From positions 1-24,348 of IMG/VR virus record IMGVR_UViG_3300025101_000183: a stretch of DNA of 24,348 nucleotides. The stretch is one strand, 5' to 3'. A model generated the notes under the pieces. It had not been told where the DNA came from. It made no database searches and saw only the letters and a program-made list of their open reading frames with translations. Every line of letters starts with the position of its first letter. Position 1 is the stretch's first letter. Made by a program: the position numbers and the translations under genes. The DNA is from a virus. Positions 3,841-18,705 of the stretch are shown here, one piece after another.

Positions 3841-4331
3841 AATTAGTACCTACATTTAAAAGTGATAAAACCTCAAGAAACTGCAAATGGTGTATGTTTT
3901 TTTGGTCTATGTTAATTATGTTCTGGTCTGTTGGAAGTATTGCAGATGAGATAGTGTTTAAGTTTAAGAGTCCAAGTTTCAATGGTAATGGTACATCATC
4001 ACATTATCTTACAATTCAGAATCAAGAGTTTAATCGTAAAGAAGCATTGAAAGCAGAGATAAAAGCTTTACAAGACCAAATAAAAAGAGACAAAGAAAAT
4101 ACAACACTTGCAAGATTTATAAGAAATTTAGAGTCTAGAATATACGCACAATTATCTAGACAGTTAGTAGAAAATTTATTTGGTGAGACTCCAAGTGATA
4201 GTGGTGTACTAGAATTAGAAGGCAACAGAATAGAATATAGTGTTGTCGATGGAATAATAACTTTGAATATAACGGACAGTGATGGGAATACAACGACTAT
4301 ATCTTTGCCTGTTGGTAATTTTTACTTCTAG
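3837..4331 (+). CDS. csgF: CsgF-like curli assembly protein
   Basis: 164 residues. In curli systems CsgF is secreted through the CsgG pore, plugs its mouth at the cell surface and couples fibre nucleation to export. Seen here: a basic N-terminus and hydrophobic segment (about 18-36) with likely cleavage at A36/D37. Then comes EIVFKFKSPSFNGNG, matching the E. coli CsgF mature start TMTFQFRNPNFGGNP that inserts into CsgG. A helical middle (about 65-120) and a C-terminal beta part (VDGIITLNITDSDGNTTTI) match the E. coli QLQLNVTDRKTGQTSTI segment. The N-terminal extension before the signal core is longer than usual. The start is tied to the previous stop by ATGA. It overlaps csgG by about 50 nt in another frame. 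Confidence 0.92.
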   Translation: MKLVPTFKSDKTSRNCKWCMFFWSMLIMFWSVGSIADEIVFKFKSPSFNGNGTSSHYLTIQNQEFNRKEALKAEIKALQDQIKRDKENTTLARFIRNLESRIYAQLSRQLVENLFGETPSDSGVLELEGNRIEYSVVDGIITLNITDSDGNTTTISLPVGNFYF

Positions 4332-5136
4332 TTGTGCTGTACTAAATCAGAATCAAGACTTAGCATTAACACAAAATATTAAAGCTAGTTCAACATTAGA
4401 CTTACAATCAGAAGAATTAAAAAACTTACCAAGTGCAAAAGCAAAACCAACTATAGCTATATACCCTAATAGCTTTAGAGACTTAACAGGTCAACGTAGA
4501 AGTAATAGTTCGTTTGCTTTGTTTAGTACAGCTATTACACAAGCTCCTGAAGCATTTTTAATTAGAGCTTTTAAACATGCAGCAGGTGGTGAATTTTTTA
4601 GAGTAGTAGAACGTGTAGGTTTAGATGACTTAACAAAAGAAAGACAACTAATAAGAAGTACTCGTAAAGAATTTAAAGAAGATAACAAAATGAAACCTCT
4701 GCTATTTGCAGGGTTATTGGTTCAGGGAGGAGTTGTTAGCTACGAGGCTAACCTCAAATCTGGAGGTGCTGGTGCTAGATATCTAGGAATAGGTAATAGT
4801 AAACAGTACAGAGAAGATACAGTTACTATATCATTGCGATTAGTTTCTGTATCAACTGGAGAAGTGCTAATGGAAACTTTAGTTTCTAAAAGCATTATAT
4901 CCACAAGTGTTTCTCAGGATGTGTTTCGTTTTATAGAAGCCGGTACTGAACTGGTAGAAATAGAAGGAGGAGTTGCTGAGAACGAGAGTGTTTCTATAGC
5001 TTTGCAAAAAGCAATAGAGACTGGAGTATTAAATATAATATATACAGGAATAGAGAGAGGCTATTGGGAATATGAAAACATTAAAATTGATGAGCCTAGT
5101 TGTGATGACGAGTGCATCGCTGCTGTACGGGGCTGA
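4282..5136 (+). CDS. csgG: CsgG-like outer-membrane secretion pore lipoprotein
   Basis: 284 residues from ATG 4282 (an adjacent GTG at 4279 is possible). CsgG forms a ring-shaped outer-membrane channel that exports curlin subunits. Seen: signal peptide ending TSSC with the lipidated cysteine at C18 and Ala at +2 (outer-membrane sorting); the -3 residue is Thr, a slightly unusual lipobox. Shared blocks with E. coli CsgG are TGQ...FSTA, ERVGLDDLTKERQLIR, YEANLKSGGAGARYLGIG, STGEVL, VFRFIE, AIETGV and GIERGYW. In the constriction loop the Phe56 equivalent (F81) is kept, Asn55 is replaced by Leu, and the loop is one residue longer with no Tyr at the Tyr51 position. The last 20 residues are extra and overlap the next gene. 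Confidence 0.95.
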   Translation: MGIQRLYLCLLVIFTSSCAVLNQNQDLALTQNIKASSTLDLQSEELKNLPSAKAKPTIAIYPNSFRDLTGQRRSNSSFALFSTAITQAPEAFLIRAFKHAAGGEFFRVVERVGLDDLTKERQLIRSTRKEFKEDNKMKPLLFAGLLVQGGVVSYEANLKSGGAGARYLGIGNSKQYREDTVTISLRLVSVSTGEVLMETLVSKSIISTSVSQDVFRFIEAGTELVEIEGGVAENESVSIALQKAIETGVLNIIYTGIERGYWEYENIKIDEPSCDDECIAAVRG

Positions 5137-5788
5137 TAACGAAATATTTGTTGACCAATCAGGTGCTACAGCTAACATAGATTTAGAGCAGTTAGGTTCA
5201 GGTAATATCATAGGTGGATTACAATCTGCTGCAGGAAGTATGAATGCATTAGATTTAGATGGTCTTAATCTTACTTTAGATATAAATCAAATAGGAAACA
5301 CTAATAAATTCCTAGGAGATATTTATGGTGATTCTATAACAGGATTTTTTGAGTTTGATGGTGATAGTAATACATTTACTATACAATCAGACCCAACAAA
5401 TACTTTTGGTATTGATAACTCTAATTATAATGTTGATGTTACTGGAGGTTCTAATACATTTACTTTAGACCACGGTACAACTGCATTAGCTGCAACATTA
5501 GATTTAGATTGGATTGTCAATGGTGACAGTAACACATTTGATTTTGATATAAACTATGATGGTGCTACTAACTATGTTGATGTAGACGGAGATGATAACA
5601 CTGTAAACTTTACAGGTTCAGGATATGCAGGTGGATATTTTTATCTTGACCAAACAGGTGATAACAGAACTTTTAACATTCAACAACTGAGTACACAAGA
5701 CAATGACTGGCTTAAAATTTTATCTAACGGTAATAATGGTACTGTTTGTGTCATTCAAAATGACCAAGGTACAAGCACAAGTTGCTAA
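5072..5788 (+). CDS. Curlin-repeat (CsgA/CsgB-like) secreted protein
   Basis: 238 residues with a signal peptide (1-21, cleavage after YGA), then an acidic, Asn/Gly/Asp-rich region. It contains about eight curlin-like strand-turn-strand units at roughly 25-48, 66-83, 91-106, 117-135, 145-161, 167-182, 189-206 and 214-230. Three keep the curlin core Q-x-G-x-x-N (DQSGATAN, NQIGNTN, DQTGDNR). Others use a GDSNTF-type core, and the flanking Ser/Gln ladder of classical CsgA is incomplete. Two cysteines lie in the last 13 residues. The obvious role is the fibre or nucleator substrate exported by the CsgG pore encoded just upstream. Whether it polymerises as amyloid cannot be read from sequence. It overlaps csgG by 65 nt and the FecR gene by 86 nt. 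Confidence 0.85.
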   Translation: MKTLKLMSLVVMTSASLLYGADNEIFVDQSGATANIDLEQLGSGNIIGGLQSAAGSMNALDLDGLNLTLDINQIGNTNKFLGDIYGDSITGFFEFDGDSNTFTIQSDPTNTFGIDNSNYNVDVTGGSNTFTLDHGTTALAATLDLDWIVNGDSNTFDFDINYDGATNYVDVDGDDNTVNFTGSGYAGGYFYLDQTGDNRTFNIQQLSTQDNDWLKILSNGNNGTVCVIQNDQGTSTSC

Positions 5789-6812
5789 TATTGGAAACAT
5801 AACAGAACTTAATGGAGCTGGTAGAGTAGTCAGGGATGACACTTACCAAGCTTCATTAGATTTTAACATAGAAAGTTACGATAATGTCCAAACTTCTAAC
5901 GGGAGATTGGGCATTACTTTTTTAGATGACAGTCAAGTTAGACTTACTGAACATTCTGAATTAATAATAGATGAGTTTATATACGACCCCGACCCATCTA
6001 AATCTAAGATGGCTTTACAATTTGCCAGTGGTACTGCAAGATTTATCACTGGTAAGTTAGCTACAATAGATAAAGAAAATATACTAATACAAACTCCTAG
6101 TGCTACGATAGGTATTCGTGGTACAGATTTTACAGTTACTGTAGATGAGCTAGGTAGAAGTTTAGTTATATTATTACCAGACGATGACGGTCTTCCAAGT
6201 GGAGAGATAGTTGTCGCAACAGCTATGGGACAGGTAACACTTAACAAGCCTTACCAAGCTACAACAGTTTCAATGTACGAGACTGAACCAACAAAACCCG
6301 TTATCCTTGACTTGACAGTAGAGTTAATTGATAACATGTTAATAGTAAATAGACCAGAGGAGATAAAACAAGAAAATGAAGGACAAGATGGAAGTAATGT
6401 TTCTAGTATCCTTGATGTTGATTTCCTTGAGTTCGATGATTTAGAAGTAGATTATCTTGCAGAAGATGAGTTAGAGTTTACAGAACTAGATATCAATTAT
6501 CTTGATGTAAACTTTCTTGAAGACTTGTTAGATATCATAGAAGATGTAAATGAGTTAGAACAGACTGAAACACTTTTAAAAACTGATATAGATTTAAAAG
6601 GAACACAAGTCGGATATGATGCTAATACTCAGATAAATACTTTTATGACTGATAACATCATAACCTTTTATAAAACTTTAGAAGATACCATACGTTTAGA
6701 TTTAGACAAACAGAATGCTTATACTGTTATCTTAATTCAAAACGGTAAGAGTACACAGATAATAGTTAATGGTGGAGGAGACTCTACTATAAAAATTACA
6801 CAGGATAATTAA
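5703..6812 (+). CDS. Secreted FecR-domain protein with acidic repeats
   Basis: 369 residues. Signal peptide about 1-25 (cleavage near VQA/QVA). A FecR domain at about 45-150 carries NGRLGITFLDDSQVRLTEHSE, the GTARFITGK strand and ILIQTPSATIGIRGTDF, the hallmark of this fold. FecR domains outside iron transport often sit in periplasmic or surface proteins. Residues about 236-290 are a strongly acidic stretch with recurring (D/E)x(D/N)(F/Y)L units. The C-terminal 30 residues (AYTVILIQNGKSTQIIVNGG to KITQDN) look like one curlin-like repeat. The start at 5703 lies inside the curlin gene; ATG 5736 would leave a shorter signal peptide. The cyclase gene follows after one base. Likely a periplasmic or surface adaptor between fibre and the CHASE2 sensor (inference). 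Confidence 0.87.
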   Translation: MTGLKFYLTVIMVLFVSFKMTKVQAQVANIGNITELNGAGRVVRDDTYQASLDFNIESYDNVQTSNGRLGITFLDDSQVRLTEHSELIIDEFIYDPDPSKSKMALQFASGTARFITGKLATIDKENILIQTPSATIGIRGTDFTVTVDELGRSLVILLPDDDGLPSGEIVVATAMGQVTLNKPYQATTVSMYETEPTKPVILDLTVELIDNMLIVNRPEEIKQENEGQDGSNVSSILDVDFLEFDDLEVDYLAEDELEFTELDINYLDVNFLEDLLDIIEDVNELEQTETLLKTDIDLKGTQVGYDANTQINTFMTDNIITFYKTLEDTIRLDLDKQNAYTVILIQNGKSTQIIVNGGGDSTIKITQDN

Positions 6813-6813
6813 T

Positions 6814-8556
6814 ATGAAGTGGTCATCTTTACTATTAGCTTTACTAACCCTACCATTACTATTCAATAGTGTCCCACTAGAAGTACTAAGACTCAAAACT
6901 TTTGATGCTCTTGTGCCTCAACAAAATCCTACCGGACATTTTACAATCCTGAACATTACTGAACAAGACCTAGACGATATGGGAGGATATCCTTTACCTC
7001 GTCAAAACTTAGCAAAGATTCACAACGATATAATAAATGCAGGTGCGTATGGCGTAGGCTGGGTTATGTTATTTCCACACAAAGATAGAATGGGTGGAGA
7101 TATAGAGTTTGCTAAAGCCTTACAAAGTTCTGCAAGTGTTATCGCTATGCCAGAAATAAACAACAATAGTTATCCTGCTACACATGGTACAGTTATCAAA
7201 GGACCGATAGTATCATTACCGAAAGCTCAAGGATTTTTAGAGAACATAGATGTTTTAAAACAGTCAGCTAGTCAAGGTGCTATATCTGCACCAGTAGATG
7301 TAGATAATTTAGTAAGGCGAATACCTTTACTACAACAAACAGATAATGGGTGGGTTGCTTCTTTTGGAACGGAAGTTTTAAAAATACTAGGAGGTGGTCG
7401 TACTTATCAGATTGTAACAAATCTGAATGGAATAGAACAGGTTAGAGTGAGAGGTATTCCACCCGTTTCAACAGATAGTCTTGGACGTAAGTGGATTAGT
7501 TGGGTAGATACACCACAGATAACATTAGATGAACTTGACAAAGCTGAATCTACTTTTGTATTTGTAGGATTCACAGCCAAAGGAATATCACCACAAGTTG
7601 CAACACCAGTTGGGTTATTAGAACCACATAAAATTCAAGCAGCTCTATCAGAAAGTATGTTGATGGACACACCTTACATACCTGATTATAGGTTAGTAGT
7701 AGAACTATTATTATTAATAGTCTGTGGCTTCCTCACAGCTCTTCTAATAGCACGATTAGGTATCACATGGGGTATTGTATCAGTTGGTTCTTTGATGGCA
7801 GGAACAGGGTACTTTGGATATAGTGTCATACAAAGTAACATACTTATAGATGTGACTTGGACTTTGATAAGTATGACACTTATTGCTACGTTACAATTCT
7901 ATTTAAACTTTAGAACTCAATACAAACTTAGACAACAAATCAAGAAACAATTTGAACATTACCTTGACCCAAGACAAGTTAAACAACTACAAGATAATCC
8001 TGAACTTCTGAAGTTAGGTGGAGAACGAAGAAGATGTACGTTTTTATTTACAGACGTTAGAGGCTTTACAAGTTTATCAGAACGATTAGAACCTGAACAA
8101 GTTACAGAGATTATGAATAAAGCATTAACGATACAAGCTGATGCAGTTAAAAAGTATGACGGTATGGTAGATAAATATATTGGTGATGCAATGATGGCTA
8201 TCTTTAATGCACCTATAGATGTTCCTGAACACGAGACCAAAGCCATCCAAGCAGCATTACAGATACACCGAGATATGGAAGAAGCACAATTAGGAATCGA
8301 AATAGGAATAGGTATAAATACAGGAGAAGCAGTAGTAGGGAATATGGGAAGTGAGACACGATTTGATTACTCTGCTATTGGTGATGCTGTAAATCTAGCT
8401 GCAAGACTAGAGAGTTCTACTAAAGAAGTTGGAGAAGATATAGTGATTGGGTATACCACAGCTATGAACTCTGATATACCCACTCGTTATTTAGACCCTA
8501 TAAAAGTAAAGGGTAAAAAAGATGAGATAATTATTTATACTATTCAAGAGCATTAA
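6814..8556 (+). CDS. CHASE2-transmembrane class III adenylate/guanylate cyclase
   Basis: 580 residues. Order of parts: N-terminal anchor (about 5-20), CHASE2 sensor outside the inner membrane (about 22-290), three membrane segments (about 293-314, 318-338, 343-364), cyclase catalytic domain (about 400-578). Catalytic residues are all present: metal ligands D414 (FTDVRGF) and D458 (KYIGDAM), substrate-base residues K454 and D518 (FDYSAIGD), and transition-state N527 and R531 (NLAARLE). It should be an active enzyme, and the K/D pair favours ATP, so cAMP is the likely product. CHASE2 proteins and FecR proteins are, to my knowledge, frequent bacterial neighbours, as here. A membrane sensor-cyclase inside a phage genome is unusual. 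It ends 17 nt into the convergent minus-strand gene. Confidence 0.95.
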   Translation: MKWSSLLLALLTLPLLFNSVPLEVLRLKTFDALVPQQNPTGHFTILNITEQDLDDMGGYPLPRQNLAKIHNDIINAGAYGVGWVMLFPHKDRMGGDIEFAKALQSSASVIAMPEINNNSYPATHGTVIKGPIVSLPKAQGFLENIDVLKQSASQGAISAPVDVDNLVRRIPLLQQTDNGWVASFGTEVLKILGGGRTYQIVTNLNGIEQVRVRGIPPVSTDSLGRKWISWVDTPQITLDELDKAESTFVFVGFTAKGISPQVATPVGLLEPHKIQAALSESMLMDTPYIPDYRLVVELLLLIVCGFLTALLIARLGITWGIVSVGSLMAGTGYFGYSVIQSNILIDVTWTLISMTLIATLQFYLNFRTQYKLRQQIKKQFEHYLDPRQVKQLQDNPELLKLGGERRRCTFLFTDVRGFTSLSERLEPEQVTEIMNKALTIQADAVKKYDGMVDKYIGDAMMAIFNAPIDVPEHETKAIQAALQIHRDMEEAQLGIEIGIGINTGEAVVGNMGSETRFDYSAIGDAVNLAARLESSTKEVGEDIVIGYTTAMNSDIPTRYLDPIKVKGKKDEIIIYTIQEH

Positions 8557-12762: not shown

Positions 12763-13634
12763 ATCTGTGTAACCTCTATAACATTAGGTGGTTTAGGTAC
12801 TTGAGTTAAGTATCTATAACCTGTTGAATATTTAAACACCCTTAAACCTTTACCATCGTTAGCATCTGCATGACATTCAAACTTATGTCTGCAATATACA
12901 CAGCCCCTTGCAAGTTTCATATTACCAGATTTACCATCTGGCTCATCATCATAACATTTATCAGGTGGTGTAGATAACTTAACAGCTTTTTTAATATCAG
13001 TTATTTTCTTTTTGATATTAGGCTTATCAAAGTTATCAGGTTTAAACATAGCTAACTCTCCAGACTCTTTGTTAAGAGCAAGGAAGCCACCATTCTTAGT
13101 TCCTTCTGCTTGTTCGTATCCTGCAAGTTGAGCCATGTATCCAAAAGCATCATCTTCTGCTAGTGTTCCGTCTCTAAACTTTTTAAATGCAAAACCAGAA
13201 GCAGTCTTTACATCTACAACTTCTCCATCAATAACACAGTCCATGTGTCCTTTGATTCCGGATACAGTTATTTCTTTTTGTTCATTAGTAACTTCATGTC
13301 CAGATAACTTAACAAGAAATAAAACTATCTCTTCAAGTAGATGTCCGTACAAGAACTTAATAAATGTAGGTGGAGAGATGACCTCTGTTGTATCAGATTC
13401 AGAGTTCATTTCATACCACAATTGTCTAGGCTGTTTGCCTATATTAGACATACGTAAAGAAGGTTTGCCTCGTGGACTAGGGTGTGACCAAGAGTAGAGA
13501 ATCTCTTTCATGGACTCTCCAAACTGTTCTATTGTGTCCTCATCTATGTCAAGATGTTCGCCTTTTCCTAAAGCCGACAATTTATTATATATATCTTCTA
13601 CTAATGTGTCAAGTGTTTTTTTATTTTTTTTCAT
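12759..13634 (-). CDS. PD-(D/E)XK exonuclease with C-terminal Cys cluster
   Basis: 291 residues. RecB/Cas4-like nuclease core: E101 in GHLLEE, D132 in GHMDCV, D141-V-K143 in VVDVKTAS, and Q169 with Y173 in AQLAGYEQ. The C-terminus has four cysteines (C227, C245, C248, C254; RGCVYCRHKFEC) that could bind an Fe-S cluster or zinc, as in Cas4 and AddB. Unlike Cas4, all four are C-terminal. In T7-type phages the gene at this place is the exonuclease that degrades host DNA and trims concatemers. The role here is by position. Confidence 0.87.
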   Translation of the reverse strand: MKKNKKTLDTLVEDIYNKLSALGKGEHLDIDEDTIEQFGESMKEILYSWSHPSPRGKPSLRMSNIGKQPRQLWYEMNSESDTTEVISPPTFIKFLYGHLLEEIVLFLVKLSGHEVTNEQKEITVSGIKGHMDCVIDGEVVDVKTASGFAFKKFRDGTLAEDDAFGYMAQLAGYEQAEGTKNGGFLALNKESGELAMFKPDNFDKPNIKKKITDIKKAVKLSTPPDKCYDDEPDGKSGNMKLARGCVYCRHKFECHADANDGKGLRVFKYSTGYRYLTQVPKPPNVIEVTQI

Positions 13635-14040: not shown

Positions 14041-15757
14041 TCCAATTATCTCCTATTTTGTATTCGCCATCCAACGGACAACGAAGTTTAAAATGTTCTC
14101 CTGCTTTTACAATACTATCTACAGCAAACTCTCCAATAAAATCAGCTTTATCTTCTGGTACTTCTATCTGCCATTCGTCATGTATGTTAGCAACGAACTT
14201 ATATTCTACTGCGTTTAATTTTAATACGTTATCTAGCATAACCAATCCTTGTTTCATTATGATAGCTCCTGCTCCTTGAAGTAAAGTATTCAAGGCTGAA
14301 TGAGAATTACGTATATGTAGTTTCCTACCGTCTAATCCTTTTAAGTACCCCTTTGCTGATGCTCTTTGTACTCTATCTCTAAGAGATTTAAATGATGGTT
14401 TATTATCAAAGAAATATTGTCTAGCTCTTTTACCATCTGCTGTAGTTCCTCCAACCACACTTCCAAGTTTTTCATCTCCTGCTCCGTACATGAGGGCATA
14501 GATGAATGTCTTCGCCTTATCTCTTGATTCAAGTTGTGCAAGTTTTTGATTAGAGGTGTGTATGTCTCCGTTAATGATTTCATTTGTGTATTCCTCGTCA
14601 TTCATATAATGAGCTAACATTCTAATCTCAAGACCAGAAGCATCAACTCCAAGTAAAACATTACCTTCTTCTACAGTCCAACAAGCTCTACATTCTTTAC
14701 CGTAAGGACTATAGACTGCCGGTACCTGTGCCATATTAGGATTTCTATGTGTCATCCTACCTGTAATAGCACCGTTAGGTATTACAAAGCCATGAACTCT
14801 ACCATCTTCTTGTACAGCTTCAACCCAAGAATCAACTTGAGCTATACGTTTTTGAAGCAGTAAGAAGTCTGCTATAAGTTTGGCTTCATGTATGTGTGTA
14901 ATTGCTGATAGAGTTTTTTCATCTACTATTGGCTGACCTGTAGGTGTAAACCTTTCTGGCTTCCAACCAAAGTCTACAAGATATTCTCCAATTTGTTTAC
15001 GACTACCAAGATTAAAATCCTGTAGCGTTTGTCGCATAAAAGGTTCAAAGTTATTTGTATCTAAACATCTTTGATACTCATCATCTGTAAGTCCACGTTT
15101 AGATAAGTCTCCATCTTTCTTTATGTAAGGTGTAACTAACTTATCATCTACCCATTTAGGTTTAAATGTATTATGGACTTCATCTTCGATAGCCTGTTTC
15201 TTTTCTCTAAGTTCAGCCAATAAAAGTTGAGCTTTCATTTCATCAAACTTGAATCCATTAAGCTCTTGTTGTTTCATTATCCTAGCAACATCTTGTTCTA
15301 AGTTTATAGATTGTTTAGCAAATCCTTTACTCTCTTCTCTAAGTTTCTTTAAAACTAAAGCATTGACTTGTACATCTCTAACACAATAGTCCATCATCTC
15401 TTTAGAATAGTTAAGATAGTCTGAGAACTCTATCTTATGATAGCCTAGTTTGTATCCCCACTTCTCAAGACTATGACCACCTTCTCTGTTAGGATTAAAC
15501 AACCTTGATAATACAAGAGTGTCAATGACCGGTATATCTGACAAGTCAACACCACCAAACCTTTCTACCATTGGTATATCAAATCCGATGATGTTATGTC
15601 CTATTAAAGTATCTGCATTAGATAACAGTTCATAACCTTCAGTTAATTTATCTGGTGGATATTTATATATCTTTCCAGAGTCCATGTCTTGAGCAACTAA
15701 ACAATGTATTAAAGTTGCTTTTAGGTCATCTGTTTCTATGTCAAATACTAAGTCCAT
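14027..15757 (-). CDS. Family A DNA polymerase with 3'-5' exonuclease, T7-like
   Basis: 576 residues; the replicative polymerase of the phage. Exonuclease residues: D6 and E8 (VFDIETD), D60 (GHNIIGFD), D128 (YCVRD). Polymerase residues: D372 in motif A (LLGVDASGLE), K416 and Y420 in the O helix (RDKAKTFIYALMYGAG, nearly the T7 text), D527 in motif C (IHDEW). Tyr at the E. coli F762 position is the T7 state, usually associated with virulent phages. It is clearly shorter than T7 gp5 (704), so the thioredoxin-binding insertion may be small or absent. Start overlaps the helicase stop as TAATG. Confidence 0.96.
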   Translation of the reverse strand: MDLVFDIETDDLKATLIHCLVAQDMDSGKIYKYPPDKLTEGYELLSNADTLIGHNIIGFDIPMVERFGGVDLSDIPVIDTLVLSRLFNPNREGGHSLEKWGYKLGYHKIEFSDYLNYSKEMMDYCVRDVQVNALVLKKLREESKGFAKQSINLEQDVARIMKQQELNGFKFDEMKAQLLLAELREKKQAIEDEVHNTFKPKWVDDKLVTPYIKKDGDLSKRGLTDDEYQRCLDTNNFEPFMRQTLQDFNLGSRKQIGEYLVDFGWKPERFTPTGQPIVDEKTLSAITHIHEAKLIADFLLLQKRIAQVDSWVEAVQEDGRVHGFVIPNGAITGRMTHRNPNMAQVPAVYSPYGKECRACWTVEEGNVLLGVDASGLEIRMLAHYMNDEEYTNEIINGDIHTSNQKLAQLESRDKAKTFIYALMYGAGDEKLGSVVGGTTADGKRARQYFFDNKPSFKSLRDRVQRASAKGYLKGLDGRKLHIRNSHSALNTLLQGAGAIIMKQGLVMLDNVLKLNAVEYKFVANIHDEWQIEVPEDKADFIGEFAVDSIVKAGEHFKLRCPLDGEYKIGDNWSETH

Positions 15758-17424
15758 TAAAATGCCTCGTCTAAACTATCATCAAAAGTAATATCTTCAT
15801 CTGTTAGTTCAGATAGTCTACCTGTTTCTCCATCATAAATAAGTCTACAAGCCATACCAACATCTCCTGTGTATCTTGATTTAAGTATACGCATTCTTGT
15901 TGTTCTAGCTTCATCAGGGTCATCTGATTGTTGATTACGTTCTAATGCTATCACACAATCACTAAGTTGTCCAATACTATTAGAACCTCTTAGATGAGAT
16001 AGAGATACTTCAATACCGTTCTCATGTCCTTTGTTACCGTCAACACGTCTCAAGTGTGAAACCAAAATGATTCCTGCACCTGTCTCTTCTACCAAACTTC
16101 TAAGTCTAGTCATAATAGAATCAATAGCACGTCTCTCATCTCCTTCATGTACAGCACTAACTAACATGTGAAGATGGTCAACGACTACCCACTTACAATC
16201 ACAACCTATTATCATAAATCTAAGTTTGGTAAAGATATCATCAATGTCGTTAGTACCAAAGTGTGAATGAACCCATACTCTATTCTTGTTCTCTCCGTCA
16301 TAAAGTATATCAAAGAACTTATCTAATTCTTCTTTACTGAATCTATCTCTAACTTGGTCAACATATAATCTAGCATTAGCTTCAATGGATAAGATACCGT
16401 CAATAGTTCTTCTCCAATCTTCTTCTAATGCAATGATGCCTACATTATCTGTAGTGTTCTTGATAAGATGATGTTCAAGTTCTCGTGTTACACTTGATTT
16501 ACCAAGCCCTGTACCACCTGTAAGAGTCACAAGTTCTCCTTGTCTAAGACCATACAACTTCTTGTTTAGTCCTTCATAAGGATAAGGAACACTTTCTTTT
16601 CTCTCACGATTATGGAACTTCTCACGTTGTTCAGAAACATTTATAACACCTGATGGTGTATAAACTTTAGCCGACCACCAAGCTTCAACAAACTCTTTAT
16701 GTCTGTTGTTTTTAAGCATGTCGTTAGGGTCTTTCCAACCGTTAGGTAAGGTAACTATCCTTGCTTTCCCTGGTTTGAAAAGTCTAGCAACTTTGATACT
16801 AGCTTCTTGTCCTGCCTTATCTTTATCAAAAGCAATGATGACATTTTCAAAGTTATCAAAGAACTCTAAACTTTCCTTGATGTCTCTTACCGCACCATTG
16901 GCACCACGTTTGATAGATACTACAGCCCACTTAGAACCAAGTAGTTCATAAGTAGCCATAGCATCACACTCCCCTTCAGTAACGGTAACATATTTACCGC
17001 CCTTGAAAAGTTGTTGACCAAACAATCCTGTATCATTATAAGTACCAGAAACATAGAAGTCTTTATCTCTACAGTTCCTAGTCTTAGTAGCTGATAACTC
17101 ATGCCCATTGTAATAAGGATATAAATGTTTAACGACATTACCTTGTAGGTCATGTACACATTTTACCCCATACTTCTGAGCAGTTTGTACAGAAATTTTT
17201 CTATCAGTTAATGCTGAAAACTTTCCTTCATCTACCATATCAGGTTGTTTAGTTGGTGTTGTTGTAACTGTTTGCATATCCTTTCCTCCACATGCTTTAG
17301 TATAGCTAGGCATAAACTCTCCACAACTAAAGCATTTTGCTGAGTCATCTTCATTGATTCCTACAGCATCACTACTTCCGCAAAGTGGACAAGGTTGATG
17401 TAACTTATCCCAAGTTTTATCCAT
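15757..17424 (-). CDS. Bifunctional primase-helicase, T7 gp4-like
   Basis: 555 residues from ATG 17424. Parts in order: zinc finger C12-C15/C31-C34 (CPLC...CFSC), TOPRIM primase core with E150 (VTEGECDA) and D200-K-D202 (AFDKDKAG), linker, and a DnaB/RecA-type helicase with Walker A at 303-311 (GGTGLGKSS), Walker B ending D416 (WVVVDHLH), and LVSHLRR and LRGSNSIGQ motifs. The acidic C-terminus ends in Phe like T7 gp4, where it contacts the polymerase. A GTG at 17436 would add four residues, but GAGGG six bases before ATG 17424 favours that start. Confidence 0.95.
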   Translation of the reverse strand: MDKTWDKLHQPCPLCGSSDAVGINEDDSAKCFSCGEFMPSYTKACGGKDMQTVTTTPTKQPDMVDEGKFSALTDRKISVQTAQKYGVKCVHDLQGNVVKHLYPYYNGHELSATKTRNCRDKDFYVSGTYNDTGLFGQQLFKGGKYVTVTEGECDAMATYELLGSKWAVVSIKRGANGAVRDIKESLEFFDNFENVIIAFDKDKAGQEASIKVARLFKPGKARIVTLPNGWKDPNDMLKNNRHKEFVEAWWSAKVYTPSGVINVSEQREKFHNRERKESVPYPYEGLNKKLYGLRQGELVTLTGGTGLGKSSVTRELEHHLIKNTTDNVGIIALEEDWRRTIDGILSIEANARLYVDQVRDRFSKEELDKFFDILYDGENKNRVWVHSHFGTNDIDDIFTKLRFMIIGCDCKWVVVDHLHMLVSAVHEGDERRAIDSIMTRLRSLVEETGAGIILVSHLRRVDGNKGHENGIEVSLSHLRGSNSIGQLSDCVIALERNQQSDDPDEARTTRMRILKSRYTGDVGMACRLIYDGETGRLSELTDEDITFDDSLDEAF

Positions 17425-17442
17425 GTTAGCCCTCACTATGAA

Positions 17443-17720: not shown

Positions 17721-18134
17721 TTAAAACTCCTCGTTATCTGAACTAGGTTCAGTATATTCTACTAGATTTGTAACCTTCACAGCTATTAACTCTGCAAAAG
17801 TCCCATACTTTCCTGTGTAGGGTTTAATCTTCACAGTAACTTCTGAGCCATTACCAACACTAATATCTAAATCGTTGCCATCGTTGTCAACTAATTTAGG
17901 TGCAGGGTTGGTTGTCCCATCGTGTCTATCTACTTTTCTACTGAATGAGAAAGCAGGTTCATCATATTTAGGTTGACCATCTCTGGTTCTAACCCTTGAT
18001 AAACCAAGACCTTCTAATCTAGTAGCAGTATCTTCGTCAGTCAGCACAACTATTCCGTACTTATGTGGTTCAAACTTAGTGTTTGGTGTGCTGATATTTG
18101 CCCACATAGCTTTTCCATCTACATACTCATACAT
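17721..18134 (-). CDS. Single-stranded DNA-binding protein, phage type
   Basis: 137 residues. Beta-rich OB-fold-like sequence (AMWANISTPNTKFEPHKYGI, GSEVTVKIKPYTGKYGTFAE) with an acidic C-terminus ending SSDNEEF. The terminal Phe after acidic residues is typical of T7 gp2.5-type SSBs and binds the polymerase and helicase. Much shorter than gp2.5 (232), nearer to small marine-phage versions. A full GGAGG lies nine bases before the ATG. The surrounding replication genes support the call. Confidence 0.85.
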   Translation of the reverse strand: MYEYVDGKAMWANISTPNTKFEPHKYGIVVLTDEDTATRLEGLGLSRVRTRDGQPKYDEPAFSFSRKVDRHDGTTNPAPKLVDNDGNDLDISVGNGSEVTVKIKPYTGKYGTFAELIAVKVTNLVEYTEPSSDNEEF

Positions 18135-18185: not shown

Positions 18186-18440
18186 TCATACTTTTTCTTT
18201 TTGTGCAAGTCTTTTTGCTCTTCTTCTTGCATTGTTTCTATCTCGTGTAAATTGTATAGCACTCTGTAAATCTTCCCAGAGTTCATCAAGTACTTGTTTC
18301 TTTTGTTCTTTATTAAGTCTTGTAATGATTTTAATATCAGACTTCTTAGGTATCCACGTATCCCAATAAGCTTTGTCCATGTCTTTCCATGTCCAACCTA
18401 TCTGTTTGTCTAGTGTTGTTGATTTAAAATATAAATTCAT
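18186..18440 (-). CDS. First gene after the leader, small basic protein
   Basis: 84 residues, Trp-rich N-terminal half (GWTWKDMDKAYWDTWIPKKSD) and a strongly basic helical C-terminus (RDRNNARRRAKRLAQKEK). No membrane segment. It is the first gene behind the promoter at 18677-18705 and its structured leader, so its translation start is the part most directly exposed to leader control. Charge suggests DNA or RNA binding; function not recognised. Confidence 0.78.
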   Translation of the reverse strand: MNLYFKSTTLDKQIGWTWKDMDKAYWDTWIPKKSDIKIITRLNKEQKKQVLDELWEDLQSAIQFTRDRNNARRRAKRLAQKEKV

Positions 18441-18670
18441 ATAACCCTCGTGTTAAAGTTTTAGTGTGATGGACGATGGGTTCTAGCACTCATTCCAACC
18501 TTTATCTTACGACCACCTTTAAGGATTTTACAGTAAGCTCATCTTACACTAAACTTTTAAAATCAGTCTGGTTTTAGTGGCACTAGACCAGAAACTAGCA
18601 CGATTGCTCGTATGTCTTTAGGTTCAGGAAGGTTAGTTGAGGGCTACACCTTTGGACACACCTGTTATAC
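18441..18670 (-). ncRNA. Long structured 5' leader before the replication operon
   Basis: About 230 nt without a convincing gene, between a consensus promoter and the gene at 18440. It can fold well. A 12-bp helix joins 18455-18467 with 18546-18557 (one bulge). There is a hairpin at 18533-18547 (GTAAG/CTTAC), a two-part hairpin at 18567-18592 (TCTGGT/ACCAGA plus an inner TAGT/ACTA) and GGTT/AACC at 18479-18500. A 10-codon frame (MSARTHRPSH) at 18461-18493 on the same strand has AAGG ahead and could be a leader peptide. It matches no riboswitch or tRNA I can recognise. It may be a cis-acting regulator or a processed small RNA. Confidence 0.5.
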
Positions 18671-18676
18671 GGAGTA

Positions 18677-18705
18677 ATTATATTATTCCTGTCCCTCTCT
18701 GTCAA
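18677..18705 (-). promoter_or_regulatory. Consensus sigma70 promoter for the replication operon
   Basis: On the minus strand TTGACA (18705-18700), 17-base spacer and TATAAT (18682-18677), a perfect match to the bacterial housekeeping consensus. Transcription should start near 18670. The -35 and spacer lie in the 3' end of the gene at 18683-18874. Confidence 0.82.

Follow-up and report, generated by a model that had tools for sequence, protein, structure and literature searches.

Why does a consensus promoter stand some 230 nt ahead of the first gene of an operon, and what is made from the DNA in between? The question is raised by a 24,348-nt stretch of viral DNA (positions 1 to 24,348 of IMG/VR record IMGVR_UViG_3300025101_000183; hereafter, the window), on whose minus strand the sequence TTGACA-N17-TATAAT precedes a replication operon (Table 1). 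The promoter is as perfect as originally predicted. By hand arithmetic, the base composition predicts ~0.04 chance occurrences of such a site in the window, and the one further perfect copy, at 13612, lies inside a gene. In all 86 distinct leaders that carry the RNA module A described below (A-leaders), the promoter was retained, with 12/12 matches in 53 and 11/12 in 33 and a spacer of invariably 17 nt, compared to mostly 7-9 of 12 for random 73-nt windows. The site thus combines the -35 and -10 consensus and a spacer of 16-18 nt with conservation, as a sigma70 promoter should, and it places the predicted transcription start near 18670. From 18671 to 18441, the DNA holds no listed gene and is non-coding up to the start codon at 18440, which bears out the predicted gap. 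The window leader contains nothing resembling a terminator, and neither a tRNA nor a tmRNA was found in the window. The folding energy of the whole leader as a single sequence did not differ significantly from that of shuffled sequences (z = -0.6), as would be expected of short pseudoknots; the support for structure is comparative.

Table 1. Features on the minus strand of the window.
Feature	Position	Strand	Remarks
sigma70 promoter TTGACA-N17-TATAAT	18677-18705	-	12/12 consensus match
RNA module A	18610-18661	-	7-bp closing stem GUGUGUC/GACAUAC (window) around core
RNA module B	18565-18601	-	H-type pseudoknot; S1 CUAG/CUAG, S2 CUGGU/ACCAG
RNA module C	18455-18558	-	pseudoknotted junction: P1, P2, P3, P4 and pseudoknot
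module C P1	18546-18558 with 18455-18467	-	closing stem
module C P2	18533-18537 with 18506-18510	-	pairing
module C pseudoknot	GAU 18541-18543 with AUC 18475-18477	-	pairing
ribosome-binding site GAGGGUUA of first gene	18442-18449	-	sequence
84-aa ORF, first gene after the array	18186-18440	-	no Pfam, PHROGs or PADLOC match
Gp2.5-like single-stranded DNA-binding protein (SSB)	17721-18134	-	PHROG 112, E = 2.3e-8
primase-helicase, replication operon	15757-17436	-	Toprim + DnaB_C; 47% identical to pelagiphage HTVC103P

The operon runs from the 84-aa ORF through the SSB, a 91-aa ORF and the primase-helicase to a family A polymerase, nucleases and ribonucleotide reductase. Elsewhere in the window, on the plus strand at 4279-8556, genes for CsgG (a curli pore), a FecR-domain protein and a CHASE2-adenylate/guanylate cyclase adjoin one another, and a CHASE2 cyclase beside a curli pore is unusual; phage curli pores have been reported in marine myophages (PMC9004378). 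Near the contig end, AAAAGTGTCATACTTTT-like and TATAAAATTTATACAG-like motifs recur between 24348 and 24100 and possibly form an origin or a cluster of repressor sites.

Relatives of the leader, many of them on short metagenomic contigs, were collected by anchoring on the primase-helicase (80 viral loci used of 598 found in viral contigs) and with a 16-nt pattern for module A, which matched 114 stretches, a few of them by chance in unrelated contigs. The leader aligned piecewise, at 90-95% nucleotide identity where alignable, in many relatives, and in most of those with long leader matches it was more similar than the next gene (94% versus 86% in locus L040, 91% versus 72% in L034). It turned out to be a mosaic of separately folding modules joined by short AT-rich linkers, with the order A-B-C1 in the window and with B, C and others following A in varying subsets elsewhere. 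Annotation with fuzzy patterns resolved 77 distinct leaders into 38 architectures, a count that shifts slightly with how inserts are counted, since the pattern for module N can match inside C. The repertoire comprises at least 17 modules, of which up to six different ones stand in a row. Arrays are exchanged quickly: among 29 pairs of phages with 98-100% identical helicase DNA, the array differed in 24. They are also heterotypic rather than tandem repeats of one unit, D-D occurring in just two A-leaders. By eye, none of the modules is present in the gaps before the SSB or primase genes of HTVC103P and HTVC115P; the latter (L180, 5141-5545) has a 400-nt unannotated, structured-looking gap before its SSB gene, free of any module.

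Module A is the first module behind the promoter in all A-leaders, its core located ~29 nt past the -10 box. This core, GUAGCCCUCAACUAACCUUCCUGAACCU (18647-18620), is nearly invariant, and the surrounding stem was paired in 94.8% of cases, with changes on both sides at three of its seven pairs; the interior fold was assigned by eye. Module B was fully paired across its nine variants (100% of cells), where an S1 pair occurs as U-A, A-U or G-C and an S2 pair as G-C or A-U. Module D does not occur in the window, but no module is commoner elsewhere. Its 27 nt form an H-type pseudoknot whose first stem has 4 bp; the 21 variants were 100% paired, and four pairs showed changes on both sides. B and D thus share the H-type pseudoknot form of a type III antitoxin unit, with covariation and both stems completely paired. 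In module F, an internal hairpin and a second stem both vary in a compensatory manner; for example, both differ between L303 and L263, whose tRNA neighbours are identical. By eye, G, H, O, P and T are H-type pseudoknots as well, whereas A and C adopt other folds; the module boundaries and the folds of I, J, K and M were likewise set by eye. Module I, noted together with the module after F in the arrays of L047, L040 and L053, has a conserved loop GGAAAGC. In some phages its stem is wholly exchanged for a different one that is again complementary (GUUCUUGG.. versus GUCUAUAA..), making it another covarying RNA domain. Downstream of F in L268, L274, L296 and L255 lie further, different pseudoknots with a recurring GAGTAGAA-like linker, and the larger phage contigs suggest a module repertoire wider than the one catalogued here.

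The most elaborate fold is that of module C, in which P1 closes the domain, P2 and P3 form one arm and P4 (assigned by eye) another, while the pseudoknot links the strand before GAG with the strand after the core ACC. The segments UGUAAAA and AUGAG..CUA..ACC are nearly invariant, and P3 accepts interchangeable inserts, one of them an N-like sequence. In 34 variants, P1 and P2 were 100% paired with at least two Watson-Crick pair types at every position; the P1 partners had been picked by best complement, which introduces a small bias, as 7/7 was reached in just 5% of shuffled tails. The pseudoknot was paired in 79% of cells, compared to at most 65% in shuffles. These pairs were counted by script on normalised columns, because the tool alignment splits the pseudoknot columns; a looser search pattern for C gave no matches. 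The 12-bp long-range helix of the original prediction is real and corresponds to P1 of a covarying module, but only ~8 bp of it are conserved, the outer pairs occurring where C is the last module (the window and L016). A 10-codon frame that had also been pointed out does exist, with its ATG at 18493; this ATG reads ATA in many homologues, and we rejected a conserved peptide.

With covariation in all three modules of the window, the leader almost certainly consists of real, modular, structured RNAs, in agreement with the structured leader first proposed. It also matches no Rfam family. Rfam at the gathering score returned 0 matches in the window and 20 relatives, and relaxed scans (E<=10; E<=5) gave chance-level hits with no credible match. 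BLASTN of the leader, F and the arrays against annotated phages and plasmids yielded one 36-nt match at chance level and nothing else, and a seven-module array query was absent from plasmids. The module D pattern did not occur in 84,980 bacterial genomes, and a GTDB search returned no relatives of the helicase. Among the sampled genes adjoining arrays, PADLOC matched no defence model and no ToxN, CptN or TenpN toxin gene.

The modules are not tied to one genomic setting. The D pattern occurred in 106 viral stretches, many of them gaps between other genes without module A, and 121 distinct clusters were nearly all in the sense of transcription and mostly before a same-strand gene, the downstream genes being of many kinds. 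Three A-leaders contain a second promoter between array and gene. Module F is found in larger contigs as well: together with pseudoknot T, it lies between tRNA-Glu and tRNA-Val in seven loci (L261, L263, L284, L287 and L303-L305), in L296 it precedes tRNA-Glu, -Asp and -His along with further pseudoknots, and in L280 it follows a gene and stands upstream of a separate consensus promoter, with a terminator-like hairpin, noted by eye alone, in between. The proteins encoded near F in these contigs include a QueD-like one (by eye) and one that is nearest to that of the T4-type pelagiphage Mosig; judged from sequence, the contigs may be T4-like.

We propose that the strong promoter would transcribe the array A-B-C as self-contained pseudoknotted modules drawn from a pool of exchangeable RNA cassettes that phages share. 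The modules may be released or exposed as small stable RNAs that act mainly in trans, each binding and occupying or inhibiting one host RNA-binding protein. The likeliest targets would be RNase-type defence proteins, as for the type III (ToxI-like) antitoxin RNAs and the PhiTE pseudo-ToxI decoy. Gain and loss of modules would then track changing host defences, and a single module would stay near-invariant since its target does. Action in trans is suggested by the invariance of the modules, the fast exchange of whole modules among near-identical phages, the sense orientation without a fixed gene or position, and the occurrence in tRNA clusters. We assign a probability of roughly 40% to this trans, anti-host role, which takes up the small RNA that was among the functions first guessed for the leader. 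Several observations speak against it: no host copy was found with the module D pattern in the 84,980 genomes or with the seven-module array query in plasmids, and no cognate toxin among the sampled array neighbours; the arrays mix different modules, whereas ToxI repeats one unit in tandem; A, C and I exceed known type III antitoxins in size; and the position of most arrays directly upstream of a same-strand gene also fits a role in cis.

Such a role in cis is the main rival, since most arrays precede a gene. The modules would then be 5'-UTR or intercistronic elements whose compact pseudoknots keep RNases off the mRNA or adjust how the following gene is translated, and A might pair its UAGCCCUC loop with the ribosome-binding site. 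We consider this possible, if on the unlikely side. In its favour, A always comes first behind the promoter, and GAGGGUUA is complementary to UAGCCCUC, one G-U included; GAGGG(C/U)UA stands before 41 of 59 first genes of A-leaders compared to 94 of 2671 other starts, and the 94 are mostly starts of the primase-helicase. However, a local hairpin at the ribosome-binding site (AAC/GUU, AGC/GCU) explains the motif equally well, and A shows no covariation with it, so we rejected the pairing. Protection would moreover require structure and not a near-invariant sequence, the same modules are also present among tRNA genes and ahead of a separate promoter, and near-identical phages carry entirely different arrays before the same gene. 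The GAGGG(C/U)UA motif is itself common to several genes of this phage group, often as a small hairpin whose loop holds the Shine-Dalgarno sequence, and the primase-helicase gene (start near 17436) has TGAGGGCTAAC in nearly all loci; the hairpin is possibly a translational operator.

Other accounts each capture part of the data. A riboswitch or attenuator of the replication and nucleotide operon, as the original prediction had it, would draw on the multi-helix pseudoknotted core and nearly invariant segments of C, which resemble a ligand-binding aptamer, and C and other modules would control the operon. The data do not support it, and we regard it as the least probable of the readings, because the window leader lacks a terminator-like site that could accompany an aptamer as its expression platform, the same modules precede unrelated genes rather than a coherent set, F lies among tRNA genes and ahead of a separate promoter, an array can string together up to six different modules, near-identical phages place different module sets before the same operon, and relaxed Rfam scans gave no credible match. 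Processive antitermination or an RNA-polymerase-binding leader of the HK022 put type, with A as the decisive element where a long early operon begins, would account for the position of A directly behind the promoter and its almost invariant core; it does not explain why B, C, D and further modules exist and are swapped, nor the arrays that have neither A nor a promoter, and is improbable. We hold an equally low opinion of attC- or MITE-like cassettes that are selfish or recombinogenic and have hairpins functioning at the DNA level: although discrete cassettes are indeed rapidly gained, lost and exchanged, the modules are almost always in the transcription sense and confined to transcribed gaps, and their helices accept G-U and seldom A-C, a strand-specific signature of RNA.

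Among known RNAs, the modules most resemble the pseudoknots of type III antitoxins and the pseudo-ToxI decoy carried by a phage. Type III toxin-antitoxin RNAs (ToxI, CptI, TenpI) are likewise short H-type pseudoknots in transcribed arrays, and the ToxI core is comparable in size to module D (PMC8860590), with which it shares a 4-bp first stem and an A-rich loop. In contrast to ToxI, where one unit is repeated in tandem beside its toxin gene, the arrays described here string together different modules with no toxin gene identified, and A, C and I have larger folds. Phage pseudo-ToxI RNAs can suppress ToxIN, and that of PhiTE is, like our modules, a phage-encoded pseudoknot RNA in an intergenic gap that is altered by recombination or expansion (PMC3475682); PhiTE has one repeat type that copies one toxin system, whereas here many module types extend over hundreds of marine phage contigs. 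AbiF/RCd22 is a similar case, in which a structured ncRNA neutralises, both in cis and in trans, a defence protein of the RNase family (PMC12373285); that ncRNA is encoded with its own toxin. As neither a cognate toxin nor a host copy was found in the searches above, we suggest antitoxin mimicry by analogy, and claim no membership in these families. Among structured RNAs of marine phages, the manA and wcaG motifs were described in 5'UTRs of phage genes (PMC2864571), as single motifs read as riboswitch candidates and not, in that paper, as swapped arrays; their Rfam models gave no match here. A further likeness arises from the SSB gene in the operon, in that the leader of T4 gene 32, which encodes an ssDNA-binding protein, contains a pseudoknot. 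Autoregulation of the present leader by the SSB is nevertheless unlikely, since the modules are swapped, precede unrelated genes and lie in tRNA clusters.

Judged against Rfam and a partly narrow search of the open-access literature, this looks like a previously unrecognised phage cassette system, and we tentatively suggest, well short of even odds, that at least 17 horizontally exchanged, structured and mostly pseudoknotted small RNAs, combined into arrays within tRNA clusters, intercistronic gaps and early 5'UTRs of different marine phages, each neutralise a different host RNA-binding defence protein. Even if their role is cis-acting, A, B, C, D and F count as new RNA families, backed by covariation and lacking an Rfam entry, in arrays common to small replication-operon phages and larger tRNA-carrying phage contigs. 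Phage counter-defence is known mostly in the form of proteins; if the proposal is true, swappable RNA arrays would add a new layer to the conflict between phages and their hosts, matching in RNA what anti-defence islands do with proteins. The modules are testable RNA ligands that, through their host targets, could lead to hitherto unknown defence proteins of abundant marine bacteria.
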